Shown piece after piece: positions 44,452-47,757 of a DNA stretch of 47,757 nucleotides. Position 1 is the first letter of the stretch, and each line of letters starts with the position of its first letter. A program made the translations under genes and the position numbers. The notes under the pieces were generated by a model, which saw only the letters and a program-made list of their open reading frames with translations, did not search any database and had not been told where the DNA came from. Source of the DNA: Mariniflexile gromovii (GTDB taxonomy: Bacteria; Bacteroidota; Bacteroidia; Flavobacteriales; Flavobacteriaceae); assembly GCF_017814435.1 (NCBI RefSeq), contig NZ_JAGJCB010000027.1:1-47757 (forward strand). The letters run 5' to 3'.

Positions 44452-46350
44452 ATGAGTGATTCAATAAAACACGAATGTGGTATAGCAGTTTTAAGACTTT
44501 TAAAACCGCTTGAATTTTATAAAGAAAAATATGGCACTGCTTTTTATGGGGTAAACAAAATGTACCTTATGATGGAAAAGCAGCACAACCGTGGGCAAGA
44601 CGGTGCTGGTTTTGCAAGCATTAAGTTAGACGTAAAACCAGGGGAACGCTATATTAGTAGGGTGCGTTCCATTGCCCAACAACCCATTCAAGACATATTT
44701 GCTCAAATAAACGATCGTGTTAATAAAGAGTTTATAGAGCATCCTGAATATGCTGATGATATAGCGCTACAAAAAAAACACATCCCCTATATTGGCGAGG
44801 TGTTTTTAGGACACGTGCGTTATGGTACTTTCGGGAAAAACAGTGTGGAAAGTGTACACCCGTTTTTAAGACAGAATAACTGGATGCACCGTAATTTAAT
44901 TATGGCTGGAAACTTTAACATGACCAATGTTAAAGAGTTATTTGCAAATCTTATTAGGTTAGGGCAACACCCAAAAGAGTATACCGATACCATTACCATC
45001 ATGGAAAAAATTGGTCACTTTTTAGATGATGCGGTTAGTAAAATTTACAAAGATGTAAAAAAGGAAGGTTACAGCAAAAATCAAGCATCTCCATTAATAG
45101 CCGAACGATTAAACGTTGCTAAAGTTTTAAAAAAAGCTGCTAAAGATTGGGATGGCGGTTATGCTATGGCAGGATTAATTGGCCATGGTGACTCTTTTGT
45201 ATTGAGAGATCCTGCTGGCATTAGGCCAACATACTATTATATAGATGATGAAGTTGTAGCCATAGCTTCAGAACGTCCTGTAATTCAAACGGTTTTTAAC
45301 GTAAAATTTGAAGACGTAAAAGAATTGGAACCAGGACATGCTATTATTACAAAAAAATCCGGGAAAGTTATCATCAAAAAAATATTACAACCACTGGAAC
45401 GTAAATCATGTTCTTTTGAACGCATTTATTTTTCTCGAGGAAGTGATGCCGAAATTTACCAAGAACGAAAAATGCTTGGTAAATTATTAATGCCTAAAGT
45501 TTTGGAGGCTATTGATAATGATACGAAAAACACCGTGTTTTCTTATATTCCAAATACTGCCGAAACATCCTTTTTTGGGATGATCGAAACAGCCGAAGCT
45601 GCATTGAACAAAAAGAAAACAGCTGCTATTTTAGAAGGTCAGCGCTCGCTTTCTGCCGAAAAAGTTACCGATGTGCTATCTGAGCGTATTCGCGTAGAAA
45701 AAATAGCGATTAAAGATGTGAAGCTAAGAACTTTTATTACTGAAGACAGTAGTAGAGATGATTTGGTGGCACACGTTTACGACGTAACTTACGGCGTTAT
45801 AAAACCAAATGACAATTTGGTGATTATTGATGATAGTATTGTAAGAGGCACAACTTTAAAAAAGAGTATTTTAAAGATACTGGACCGTTTAAGCCCTAAG
45901 AAAATTATAGTGGTTTCATCGGCACCACAAATACGTTACCCAGATTGTTATGGCATCGATATGGCAAACCTTGAAAGTTTAGTTGCTTTTAGAGCTGCAT
46001 TGGAATTATTAAAAGAAGCCGATCAATATCATATTGTAAAAGAAGTTTATGATAAATGTGTAGAACAGACGGAATTGGAAGATGTTTATGTACAAAATTT
46101 TGTAAAGGAAATATACGACCCATTTACAGATGAACAAATCTCTGATAAAATAGCCGAACTTTTAAGTCCTGATAACATAAATGCCGAAGTTAAAATTATT
46201 TTCCAGTCTGTTGAAAATTTACATAAGGCATGCCCTGAACATTTAGGCGATTGGTATTTTACAGGCAACTATCCAACCGTTGGTGGTAACCGCGTTGTAA
46301 ACCGTGCTTTTATTAATTTTTATGAAGGTAATAAAGAACGTGCCTATTAA
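44452..46350 (+). CDS. Amidophosphoribosyltransferase-like protein (PurF family)
   Basis: This 632-residue protein has an N-terminal class II glutamine amidotransferase domain and a C-terminal phosphoribosyltransferase domain. The nucleophilic cysteine appears to be C9 in KHECGIAVL, so an 8-residue propeptide would have to be removed. Other amidotransferase motifs are HNRGQDGAGFAS and FLGHVRYGTFGK. The PRPP motif VIIDDSIVRGTT lies near 457-469. It is about 130 residues longer than classical PurF, with inserts in the glutaminase half and a longer C-terminus. This is a Bacteroidota variant of the first committed purine enzyme, or a paralogue of it. Confidence 0.88.
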   Translation: MSDSIKHECGIAVLRLLKPLEFYKEKYGTAFYGVNKMYLMMEKQHNRGQDGAGFASIKLDVKPGERYISRVRSIAQQPIQDIFAQINDRVNKEFIEHPEYADDIALQKKHIPYIGEVFLGHVRYGTFGKNSVESVHPFLRQNNWMHRNLIMAGNFNMTNVKELFANLIRLGQHPKEYTDTITIMEKIGHFLDDAVSKIYKDVKKEGYSKNQASPLIAERLNVAKVLKKAAKDWDGGYAMAGLIGHGDSFVLRDPAGIRPTYYYIDDEVVAIASERPVIQTVFNVKFEDVKELEPGHAIITKKSGKVIIKKILQPLERKSCSFERIYFSRGSDAEIYQERKMLGKLLMPKVLEAIDNDTKNTVFSYIPNTAETSFFGMIETAEAALNKKKTAAILEGQRSLSAEKVTDVLSERIRVEKIAIKDVKLRTFITEDSSRDDLVAHVYDVTYGVIKPNDNLVIIDDSIVRGTTLKKSILKILDRLSPKKIIVVSSAPQIRYPDCYGIDMANLESLVAFRAALELLKEADQYHIVKEVYDKCVEQTELEDVYVQNFVKEIYDPFTDEQISDKIAELLSPDNINAEVKIIFQSVENLHKACPEHLGDWYFTGNYPTVGGNRVVNRAFINFYEGNKERAY

Positions 46351-46452
46351 TTATTATTAATTAATTTATAACCGTAAATAATACAAAAATCACATTTAAA
46401 CAGAATTAATTACCGTTCATCTAAAAAATATTAAGATTATCTAAAATACATA

Positions 46453-46460
46453 TAAATTAG
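46453..46460 (+). promoter_or_regulatory. Candidate -7 box of small-RNA copy 1
   Basis: TAAATTAG, one mismatch to TAnnTTTG, ends two bases before the identical core of copy 1. The corresponding position of copy 2 holds a perfect box at the same spacing. Confidence 0.45.
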
Positions 46461-46462
46461 AA

Positions 46463-46537
46463 TCACCATAACATAAGTAGGTTAAGTTCATGGTAGATTT
46501 GGGGCAAAAAAAGGTGAACTTCTGTTCGCCTTTTTTT
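46463..46537 (+). ncRNA. Tandem small RNA, copy 1
   Basis: A candidate non-coding RNA of about 75 bases. Bases 46463-46510 are identical to 46654-46701. The 5' part can fold as ACCAT-AAC with GTT-C-ATGG (8 pairs, one bulged C, loop ATAAGTAGGTTAA). A single-stranded linker (TAGATTTGGGGC) leads to a terminator with stem GGTGAAC/GTTCGCC, loop TTCT and seven T residues (46531-46537). The stem differs from copy 2 at one position, where a G-U pair replaces A-U. No open reading frame of useful length is present. The RNA family is not known to me; Rfam models for Bacteroidota such as Flavo-1 should be compared. Confidence 0.7.
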
Positions 46538-46583
46538 ATGCGTTCTAGTTTTTAAATAGCCCTTTTAAATAATTTAATAAAAT

Positions 46584-46640
46584 CGCTTAAGCCAATAAAT
46601 TAGCCGTTTAACTAAAATATTTTCCACAACGCTTAAGCCA
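46584..46640 (+). promoter_or_regulatory. Two GCTTAAGC palindromes ahead of small-RNA copy 2
   Basis: The 11-base word CGCTTAAGCCA, containing the perfect palindrome GCTTAAGC, occurs at 46584-46594 and 46630-46640, starts 46 bases apart. The second copy ends three bases before the -7 box of small-RNA copy 2. It could be an operator pair, but the word is short. Confidence 0.35.
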
Positions 46641-46643
46641 TCA

Positions 46644-46651
46644 TACATTTG
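46644..46651 (+). promoter_or_regulatory. Candidate -7 box of small-RNA copy 2
   Basis: TACATTTG is a perfect match to the Bacteroidota -7 consensus. It ends two bases before the conserved core, the same distance as in copy 1, which supports a shared transcription start near 46656. Confidence 0.55.
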
Positions 46652-46653
46652 CC

Positions 46654-46730
46654 TCACCATAACATAAGTAGGTTAAGTTCATGGTAGATTTGGGGCAAAA
46701 AGGTGAACTCTCGTTCACCTTTTTCATTTT
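46654..46730 (+). ncRNA. Tandem small RNA, copy 2
   Basis: The second copy of the roughly 75-base RNA has a 48-base core identical to copy 1. The 5' stem-loop and the linker are unchanged. The terminator is now a perfect 12-base stem, 46697-46708 (AAAAAGGTGAAC) with 46713-46724 (GTTCACCTTTTT), with a four-base TCTC loop and T-rich tail. The loop and tail sequences outside the pairs differ from copy 1 while pairing is kept, which favours a functional structure. It lies about 210 bases ahead of the next gene and so is not an obvious leader. Confidence 0.7.
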
Positions 46731-46836: not shown

Positions 46837-46938
46837 CTTTACTGGATAACAGTAACAAGAAACTTACTATATCCCGACATATTTACGGGATATAAGTAAT
46901 AAAAGTTACTATATAACACGTTGTGCACTATTTGAGAA
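46837..46938 (+). repeat. Fold-back repeat upstream of the cassette-like unit (copy B)
   Basis: This is homologous to 1427-1530. It contains a two-tier inverted repeat. The outer arms are AGTAAC 46851-46856 and GTTACT 46905-46910. The inner arms run from TTACTATATCCCG (46864-46876) to CGGGATATAAGTAA (46886-46899), 13 pairs with one bulge. Just beyond the fold is GTTGTGC (46920-46926), near the integron R' box GTTRRRY with one mismatch, 13 bases before the ATG. This completes the 588-base gap that also holds the two small RNAs. Confidence 0.5.
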
Positions 46939-47295
46939 ATGACCGAACTAACAGACAAAATATACTACGCTGATAAAAATATTCTCGAAATTATTGAGTC
47001 GGAATTTGAATTAATTGACCGAAAAAGTTGGTACAGATTATATAGGAATAAAACTGACAAATCTTATTGGCGACTTGACGAATGGGACAAGTATCAGGAA
47101 CAGTTTTTTGTCAATCTTGAATCAACTGAAAAATGGTCTGAATTTAATGACAAAACTTTAAGAATTGAACTTTTAAAAAAGTCAAGAGGTTTATCAGACG
47201 AAAAATGTATTTGGAAAGATTGCGAAAAAAACGCTTTGAATAAAATTGTTTATTGCGAGAACCACGCATACAACGAAATGGGAATAAGAAAATGA
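46939..47295 (+). CDS. Hypothetical protein with a possible zinc knuckle
   Basis: This 118-residue protein of unrecognised family begins with the ATG at 46939. The N-terminal part is rich in aromatic and charged residues (SYWRLDEWDKYQEQFFVNLE), reminiscent of small immunity-type proteins. The C-terminus has KCIWKDCEKNAL...VYCENHAY, where two C and a C/H pair could bind zinc as a small treble-clef knuckle. It overlaps the next gene by four bases (ATGA), so the two form a coupled pair. It is AT-rich and sits in a cassette-like context. Confidence 0.65.
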   Translation: MTELTDKIYYADKNILEIIESEFELIDRKSWYRLYRNKTDKSYWRLDEWDKYQEQFFVNLESTEKWSEFNDKTLRIELLKKSRGLSDEKCIWKDCEKNALNKIVYCENHAYNEMGIRK

Positions 47296-47594
47296 ATTTC
47301 GAAAATTTTAGAAAAGACATAGAAAGTAAACTCAATAAGATTGCAGAATTCGAACTTCAGGAATTTCATTTTGAACCTCATAGTTTTGGAAATGGAATTC
47401 TTGCATACCGAATTAAAGGACGAATTCACAAGTTTATTTTTGATGGACGAGAAAGTGAATTAACTTGGTTAATAAGCAAATCTCATCAAAAATATTTCGG
47501 AGCGGATTTGACTGAATTTAAGAAATTAGATGGACTTGAAATTAGTTCGGAACAATTAAAAAACGGAATAAAAACAGTGCACAACACCGCATAA
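47292..47594 (+). CDS. Hypothetical protein, 100 residues
   Basis: The start is placed at 47292, where ATGA overlaps the preceding stop; the upstream in-frame codon at 47253 would overlap the previous gene by 43 bases. The protein is soluble and alpha/beta (MNFENFRKDIESKL, HEFHFEPH-like FELQEFHFEPHSFGNGILA, RIHKFIFDGRESELTWLIS). The last five residues (VHNTA) are encoded by the flanking repeat GTGCACAACACCGCA. The family is not recognised. An antitoxin/immunity or accessory role is possible, but only by context. Confidence 0.62.
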   Translation: MNFENFRKDIESKLNKIAEFELQEFHFEPHSFGNGILAYRIKGRIHKFIFDGRESELTWLISKSHQKYFGADLTEFKKLDGLEISSEQLKNGIKTVHNTA

Positions 47595-47641: not shown

Positions 47642-47757
47642 GAACTGCCCCCAAAAAGTTAGACACTATTTGAGGGTATTTTTATGGAAAGAAAAGTCAA
47701 GTACAATTACGATTTTAAACTTCGTTGCGTAAAGGAGGTATTGAAAAATCATCAAAC
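47641..47757 (+). mobile_element. IS3-family element, left end
   Basis: TGAACTGCCCCCAAAAAGTT, continuing AGACA, at the left end looks like the terminal inverted repeat of IS3-family (IS150-like) elements in Bacteroidota. A transposase OrfA start follows within 45 bases. The remainder lies outside the window, so the right end and target duplication cannot be seen. Confidence 0.7.
47684..47757 (+). CDS. IS3-family transposase OrfA, partial
   Basis: The window ends after 24 codons. The visible part begins with ATG and reads MERKVKYNYDFKLRCVKEVL, which fits the N-terminal helix-turn-helix of an IS150-type OrfA that binds the inverted repeats. The upstream TIR-like sequence and orientation agree. 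OrfB, expected to follow by frameshift, is not in the window. Confidence 0.75.
   Translation, partial: MERKVKYNYDFKLRCVKEVLKNHQ

Follow-up and report, generated by a model that had tools for sequence, protein, structure and literature searches.

Two tandem copies of a predicted small RNA follow purF

The window analyzed here is the whole stretch of 47,757 nucleotides from Mariniflexile gromovii. Two tandem copies of a short element lie in it at 46452-46541 and 46643-46728, with a start-to-start distance of 191 bp. This is the arrangement described by a first-pass annotation made from the letters of the window, and the 48 identical bases that it counted are 46463-46510 and 46654-46701. The gene upstream of the array is presumably purF, and the predicted start of copy 1 is 114 nt 3' of it. 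According to the annotation, two bases separate a -7 box from the core of each copy, and both boxes were found to end at that distance; the box of copy 1 is the poorer fit to the TAnnTTTG consensus. Both RNA ends are predicted, and the starts were inferred from the -7 box position relative to the start in Flavobacterium, as given in the available part of the source (PMC9723704). The features of the array are as follows.

44452-46350, plus strand, putative purF (amidophosphoribosyltransferase), the usual upstream neighbor of the sRNA array
46453-46460, plus strand, -7 box of copy 1, TAAATTAG
46464-46537, plus strand, predicted sRNA copy 1, about 74 nt, starting at the C/A of CACCAT and ending in the T7 run
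46472-46483, plus strand, candidate seed 1 of copy 1, CATAAGTAGGTT, apical part of the hairpin, complementing AACCTACTTATG at start codons
46496-46507, plus strand, candidate seed 2 of copy 1, linker GATTTGGGGCAA, complementing TTGCCCCAAATC in leaders
46513-46537, plus strand, predicted intrinsic terminator of copy 1, stem GGTGAAC/GTTCGCC, T7
46644-46651, plus strand, -7 box of copy 2, TACATTTG
46655-46724, plus strand, predicted sRNA copy 2, about 70 nt, ends predicted as for copy 1
46663-46674, plus strand, candidate seed 1 of copy 2, same basis as in copy 1
46687-46698, plus strand, candidate seed 2 of copy 2, same basis as in copy 1
46702-46724, plus strand, predicted intrinsic terminator of copy 2, stem GGTGAAC/GTTCACC, T5

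Folding of the whole RNA gave z = -4.18 for copy 1 and -3.94 for copy 2, and 0 of 200 shuffles folded as well. Both proposed structures, the intrinsic terminator and a 5' hairpin carrying a single bulged C, were recovered. The 5' part folded alone had z = -0.80 and was matched by 37 of 200 shuffles, which gives the hairpin no significance by itself. Its loop had been drawn with 13 bases; the predicted fold retains a loop at the apex, but of 5 nt and closed by a weak 3-bp helix. One base of the terminator stem differs between the copies with pairing kept (U-G in copy 1, U-A in copy 2), as had been noticed, and this change argues for a terminator, not for function. The pattern WAGTAGGTTAAGTTYATGGTA with up to 3 mismatches matches twice in the 47.7-kb window and not once in 100 shuffles. 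A DNA search of the 52 contigs of the same genome (E ≤ 0.001) detected no copies beyond these two.

The element was also described as free of open reading frames and apparently new, and both statements hold in the window. No open reading frame of at least 60 amino acids overlaps either copy, and a coding reading was rejected because indels in relatives disrupt the frame that follows the internal ATG. An sRNA gene is expected to have its own promoter, an intrinsic terminator, and no conserved frame, and all three are predicted here. A search of the window with 4227 Rfam families returned 0 matches at the gathering score, and a permissive search (E up to 10) returned 18 local matches, all below it. 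Among the models, MicX reached 21.4 bits against a gathering score of 75, and FopS (RF04319) reached 20.6 bits against 56. The Flavo-1 model, which we take to belong to the library searched, had no match in the window at the gathering score and is absent from the 18 weak ones. A phage origin was rejected, the core pattern being without an exact match in viral contigs. No earlier report of the purF-adjacent RNA was found in the literature on flavobacterial sRNAs, LytTR regulators, FopS, or feed-forward loops, and core stretches looked up letter for letter in the literature gave no match.

Directly after the array, an inverted repeat, GTTGTGCACT / AGTGCACAAC, is found at 46920-46929 and 47576-47585. 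Between its arms lie an open reading frame at 46939-47295 and an overlapping one that ends at 47594, as if the stretch were a small mobile insert. The letters at the end of the contig (47645-47757) look like the beginning of an insertion sequence whose open reading frame starts near 47684.

The RNA is conserved through much of one family

A DNA search at E ≤ 1e-3 found matches in 240 of 299 genomes of the family, a count that takes in a few weak matches such as that in G178 (covariance model E 0.003), and in 213 of the 249 good genomes. All six genomes of the genus, the window's own included, carry the RNA. We assign the family to Flavobacteriaceae on the basis of a scan for the exact pattern in named genomes, which yielded at least 118 stretches (titles for 80). 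We take the genus-named records with the core pattern to be Flavobacteriaceae; five records among the matches listed are labelled only Bacteroidetes or Bacteroidota. The covariance-model search suggested by the first-pass annotation was run on 246 order-drawn genomes, and scores of at least 60 bits were confined to one family. The best match outside it reached 41.4 bits, in a search that used stricter filters and can lose weak matches. Accepted members score at least 53 bits, with one exception, a contig-edge fragment at 40.9 bits (L100). Homologs beyond the family were rejected, and their matches of at most 41.4 bits were judged, as a group and not by individual inspection, to be chance or terminator-driven.

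The number of copies per stretch ranges from 1 to 6. Pairing was analyzed in 112 matches from diverse loci, with identical rows counted once (111 of 112), in an alignment that leans towards structure because it was fitted to the covariance model. The terminator has two-sided changes in 12/12 pairs and 99.2% of its cells paired. The 5' stem varies little (97.9% paired), with a two-sided change in 1/8 pairs; pairing in the short upper helix is 89.2%. The core, ACCATAAC-ATAAGTAGGTTAAGTT-ATGGTA-GATTTGGGG, about 40 nt long, is nearly unchanged letter by letter among relatives, and the -7 box keeps a fixed place. Such near-invariance points to recognition by sequence. The putative functional part is marked by this core and not by compensatory change in the 5' stem (1/8 pairs).

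The best family hits (L005, L006, L017, L021, L022, L029, L043) have a C at the bulge in their first copies and often a T in the last, and terminator lengths differ between the paralogues. These differences make the two paralogues look old and separately kept.

Among the matches listed (118 stretches, 12 of them too short to judge), 98 of 106 assessable arrays are preceded by purF in the same orientation, 92 of them within 200 nt, and such a single chromosomal position would suit a conserved DNA element or a duplicated remnant 3' of purF that encodes no RNA. This reading is opposed by the terminator covariation in all 12 pairs, by the fixed distance of the -7 box, and by the remaining 8 of the 106 assessable arrays among the matches listed, which have no purF upstream, and we consider it very improbable. 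Conservation within one family, the predicted promoter and hairpin, the covarying terminator, and the lack of an Rfam family support the original reading of the two copies as a functional sRNA.

The sRNA promoters carry a direct repeat that tracks a LytTR regulator

Upstream of the copies is a direct repeat, gcnTTTcAtC, with a 20-bp period and half-sites at about -70 and -50, which puts its center near position -57 relative to the predicted start. Counting exact TTnAnC pairs spaced by 20 bp gave 91, versus 0.53 per shuffle. The promoter set was limited to copies matching the core pattern with 75 bases available upstream, 221 in all; 169 of these have both half-sites, versus 0.25% in shuffles. 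A second set of 107 rows overlaps the first and is not fully independent, since it contains both window copies and one or more rows that do not represent a copy start; 81 of its rows have both half-sites. A site matrix was trained on the 221 promoters, that of Arcticimaribacter forsetii (G534) included, and in the 47.7-kb window every site above 16 bits falls at one of the two sRNA promoters. The half-sites there, and the candidate regulator in the same genome, are the following.

46392-46405, plus strand, upstream half-site of copy 1, 7.6 bits
46412-46425, plus strand, downstream half-site of copy 1, 12.6 bits
46583-46596, plus strand, upstream half-site of copy 2, 6.3 bits
46603-46616, plus strand, downstream half-site of copy 2, 13.0 bits
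G000:C49:3621-4313, orphan REC-LytTR response regulator, 231 amino acids, same genome as the window, between the putative priA and rpsF

The repeat is present in 26 of 57 last copies of multi-copy arrays. The last copies of several such arrays (L103, L108, L113, L124, and others) share another promoter, CACAATACCAGTAnTTTAG, in which the direct repeat is missing, and this suggests that the copy is controlled separately.

The direct repeat resembles LytTR sites, and LytTR genes were therefore counted across genomes. The candidate regulator is one REC-LytTR group located between genes that we take to be priA and rpsF-rpsR-rplI. This neighborhood was read fully in G000 and G051, and neither has a kinase gene beside the regulator. 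BLAST was used for the loci in the regulator table; in G272, G128, G197, G299, G097, G534, G104, and G048 the context comes from gene lengths and order only. A. forsetii, G051, G097, and G299 have exactly one LytTR gene together with the repeat, and G191 and G070 have no LytTR gene and no repeat. The regulator table holds the 27 genomes in which the regulator was verified or excluded, with others left out, such as G146 (one half-site); G092 failed a narrower repeat scan and passed the one behind the table. Repeats occur in 17 of the 22 genomes with the rpsF-linked regulator and in 0 of 5 without it (Fisher 0.003, relatedness not corrected). The G051 regulator (L284 4528-5232) has E at the position of the likely REC phosphoacceptor D of the window genome's regulator (L283) (FLEVD versus FLDIE), and phosphorylation may not be needed there.

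A scan of 2.0 of the 2.034 Mb of A. forsetii ranks the sRNA promoter as the top site with 22.6 bits. The second-best site, at 17.3 bits, is inside a called gene, and among the 7 sites above 15 bits the sRNA promoter is the only intergenic one by crude gene calls. Direct repeats of about 20 bp also suit other regulator families, and the same kind of sRNA could be driven by one of these, for example of the AraC type, the LytTR link being a coincidence of relatedness or of incomplete genomes. Five genomes (G165, G171, G058, G277, G170) keep the LytTR gene with absent or partial repeats. The five regulator-less genomes are 95 (G191), 86 (G143), 88 (G070), 89 (G169), and 78% (G196) complete, and regulator absence may be missing data because only G191 is above 90%. 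Control by another regulator would leave unaccounted for the 0 of 5 regulator-less genomes that keep the repeats and the similar repeats that 4 of 12 genomes have upstream of the regulator gene itself (8 of the 12 regulator promoters have none). A LytTR site is expected to be a direct repeat of about two helical turns near -60, and the predicted promoter has this form; in the available part of its source, the LytTR protein AgrA acts on direct repeats centered near -60 of the P2 and P3 promoters (PMC4227749), which the center near -57 resembles. We regard control by another regulator as unlikely and favor the orphan LytTR protein.

Loop and linker are complementary to start codons and leaders

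Target searches in A. forsetii that used energy or word matches alone gave no signal. Energy-only prediction returned best duplex energies within the range of six shuffled RNAs; k-mer complementarity returned 15 ten-mers, inside the shuffled range (mean 5.2, maximum 16); and linker matches of ≥7 nt showed no enrichment by themselves (25 versus 18.25). In the same genome, CCTACTTATG lies across the start codon of two genes, with 0.07 expected from base frequencies, and 2.4% of permuted seeds do as well as this start seed (2 genes, ≥7 nt). The seed pattern ACCTACTTATGV was chosen after these two genes had been seen.

The occurrence of ACCTACTTATGV was compared between 15 sRNA-bearing genomes and 15 genomes without a convincing copy. 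Two of 29 original hits in the former were the sRNA's own antisense and were dropped, and 10 of the other 27 lie at start codons of open reading frames of at least 60 amino acids, versus 1 of 13 in the controls. The difference is borderline as a table (P = 0.053) and has P = 0.0013 per Mb. For four control genomes (G021, G046, G304, G306) the absence of the sRNA comes from earlier searches, three (G015, G052, G136) have weak covariance-model matches, and the sole control start hit is in G008, which is 80% complete. A start hit was an open reading frame of at least 60 amino acids from ATG with fewer than 35 open codons upstream, a rule written down only at the fresh set described below; frames open far upstream (L456, L457, L488, L493) were left out. 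A linker complement of at least 6 nt lies upstream in 6 of the 10 start hits versus a background of 9.1% (P = 9e-5), and 0.25% of shuffled linkers reach that count. The linker test was fixed after the ten leaders had been inspected; the linker complement played no part in the seed pattern, and the linker had been named beforehand in the first-pass annotation. The loop and the linker that it picked as target-binding candidates are the stretches that match the candidate mRNAs.

A fresh set of 16 genomes gave 6 start hits among 23, and four of the six are a CAP-domain lipoprotein already hit twice. The fresh set alone is not significant (6/23 versus 1/13, P = 0.19; 0.087 per Mb). With gene families counted once, the start hits number 11 versus 1 (P = 0.044). 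Half-sites paired at 18-22 bp are found upstream of 3 of 16 start-seed genes versus 0.6% of A. forsetii genes. Target candidates other than the CAP lipoprotein come from one genome each and are weaker. Linker complementarity before the start codon was also seen in a DUF2851 gene in L459 (G141; Pfam) and in its A. forsetii look-alike, matched by eye (G534 1659487-1659972).

A CAP-domain lipoprotein mRNA is the candidate target

In six genomes from five genera, G000 and G002 from the first set and four more from the fresh one, loop and linker complement the start codon and leader of the CAP-domain lipoprotein mRNA. The CAP domain was assigned by Pfam on the G000 and G213 copies. The complementarity covers the start codon and the last 17-26 leader bases, and in 6/6 genomes the leader would pair with RNA nucleotides 8 to about 40, spanning both seeds. 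Duplex energies of the six leaders are -21.6 to -30.3 kcal/mol, and 0-1 of 300 shuffled leaders does as well in each case. An sRNA is expected to show conserved complementarity to the initiation region of a distant target, and by sequence this is found for the CAP gene in the six genomes. In all six it follows a putative pdxH-like gene, and in all six its promoter has half-sites exactly 42 bp apart, the weaker half scoring 7.3-11.8 bits; as background, 0.35% of A. forsetii genes reach 6 bits at spacings of 40-44. No CAP gene was found in A. forsetii.

The near-invariance of the core, both stem strands included, goes beyond the needs of pairing, and it could instead reflect a protein-binding RNA, either a sponge or 6S/CsrB-like, whose hairpin and G-rich linker are recognized by a protein, for example of the RRM type, with the mRNA matches incidental. 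The multicopy arrays, the empty result of the energy-only target prediction, and the binding of Bacteroides FopS sRNAs to RbpB, described in the available part of that report (PMC11697453), would fit such a role. Incidental matches are at odds with a seed complement located at start codons, a linker complement on the right side of it, and six extended CAP leaders, and we think a protein-binding function quite improbable. Target pairing, the reading that we prefer, may be compatible with an additional chaperone.

Proposed circuit

The orphan REC-LytTR regulator would bind the direct repeat of 20-bp period and drive the sRNA copies, a step with support from the promoter comparisons. The apical loop CAUAAGUAGGUU would then pair with AACCUACUUAUG across the target start codon, and immediately before that codon the leader would pair with the linker GAUUUGGGGCAA; each pairing has support from the complementarities described above. 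With start codon and leader covered, translation initiation would be blocked. In this scheme the covering sRNA would prevent initiation on the CAP lipoprotein mRNA and perhaps on further mRNAs; transcription, pairing, and repression are all predicted steps. The CAP promoter carries the same half-sites, so the regulator, the RNA, and the target would form a feed-forward loop.

We consider it probable that the two copies belong to a new, widespread family of trans-acting sRNAs, driven by a LytTR regulator, pairing through two seeds, and acting on the CAP target in a feed-forward loop. That the orphan LytTR regulator and the tandem sRNA form a module kept through much of the family, with a mixed feed-forward loop on the CAP lipoprotein, is a proposal for which we see even chances. 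If it is true, the sRNA is the only recognizable intergenic output of the regulator in A. forsetii, the one streamlined genome scanned, as if making that RNA were the regulator's purpose. New in this analysis are the direct repeat that tracks the LytTR regulator and the complementarity of loop and linker to the CAP mRNA.

Flavobacteriaceae are a major group in the sea, in soil, and in fish disease, and their sRNA control is little mapped. The sRNA described here is widespread and has defined seeds; together with its candidate regulator and its conserved candidate target it offers a concrete, testable circuit, and the covariance model provides an annotation model for the 240 matched genomes and their kin.

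Comparison with known systems

Qrr and similar redundant sRNAs are present in several near-identical copies, are controlled by one response regulator, and act on translation starts. The purF-adjacent RNA resembles them in its near-identical copies under one candidate response regulator and in its proposed action at translation starts; it differs in regulator class and in phylum. In the agr system of Staphylococcus, too, a regulatory RNA is preceded by direct repeats on which a LytTR regulator acts, as proposed here. Its P3 promoter makes RNAIII, a regulatory RNA that pairs with mRNAs and is long, single copy, and located within the agr locus. The RNA described here is, by contrast, short and tandem, lies far from an orphan regulator, and has no Rfam match.

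Among sRNAs of Flavobacteriaceae species, the Rfp RNAs of Flavobacterium psychrophilum include one shown to affect target mRNA levels, and Rfp18 pairs through its third stem-loop, according to the available part of the report (PMC9723704). The purF-adjacent RNA shares this family setting and differs from Rfp18 in having two predicted stems; of the Rfp1-89 set, the comparison was made with Rfp18. FopS RNAs are described, in the available part of their report, as single-stranded over a 5' stretch and as having 14 paralogues in B. thetaiotaomicron (PMC11697453). Unlike FopS (RF04319), the RNA studied here has a predicted 5' hairpin, a tandem arrangement usually after purF, and strong matches only in the family of the window. 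What it has in common with FopS, a multicopy short sRNA of Bacteroidota with a seed and an intrinsic terminator (PMC11697453), is this same predicted architecture in the same phylum.
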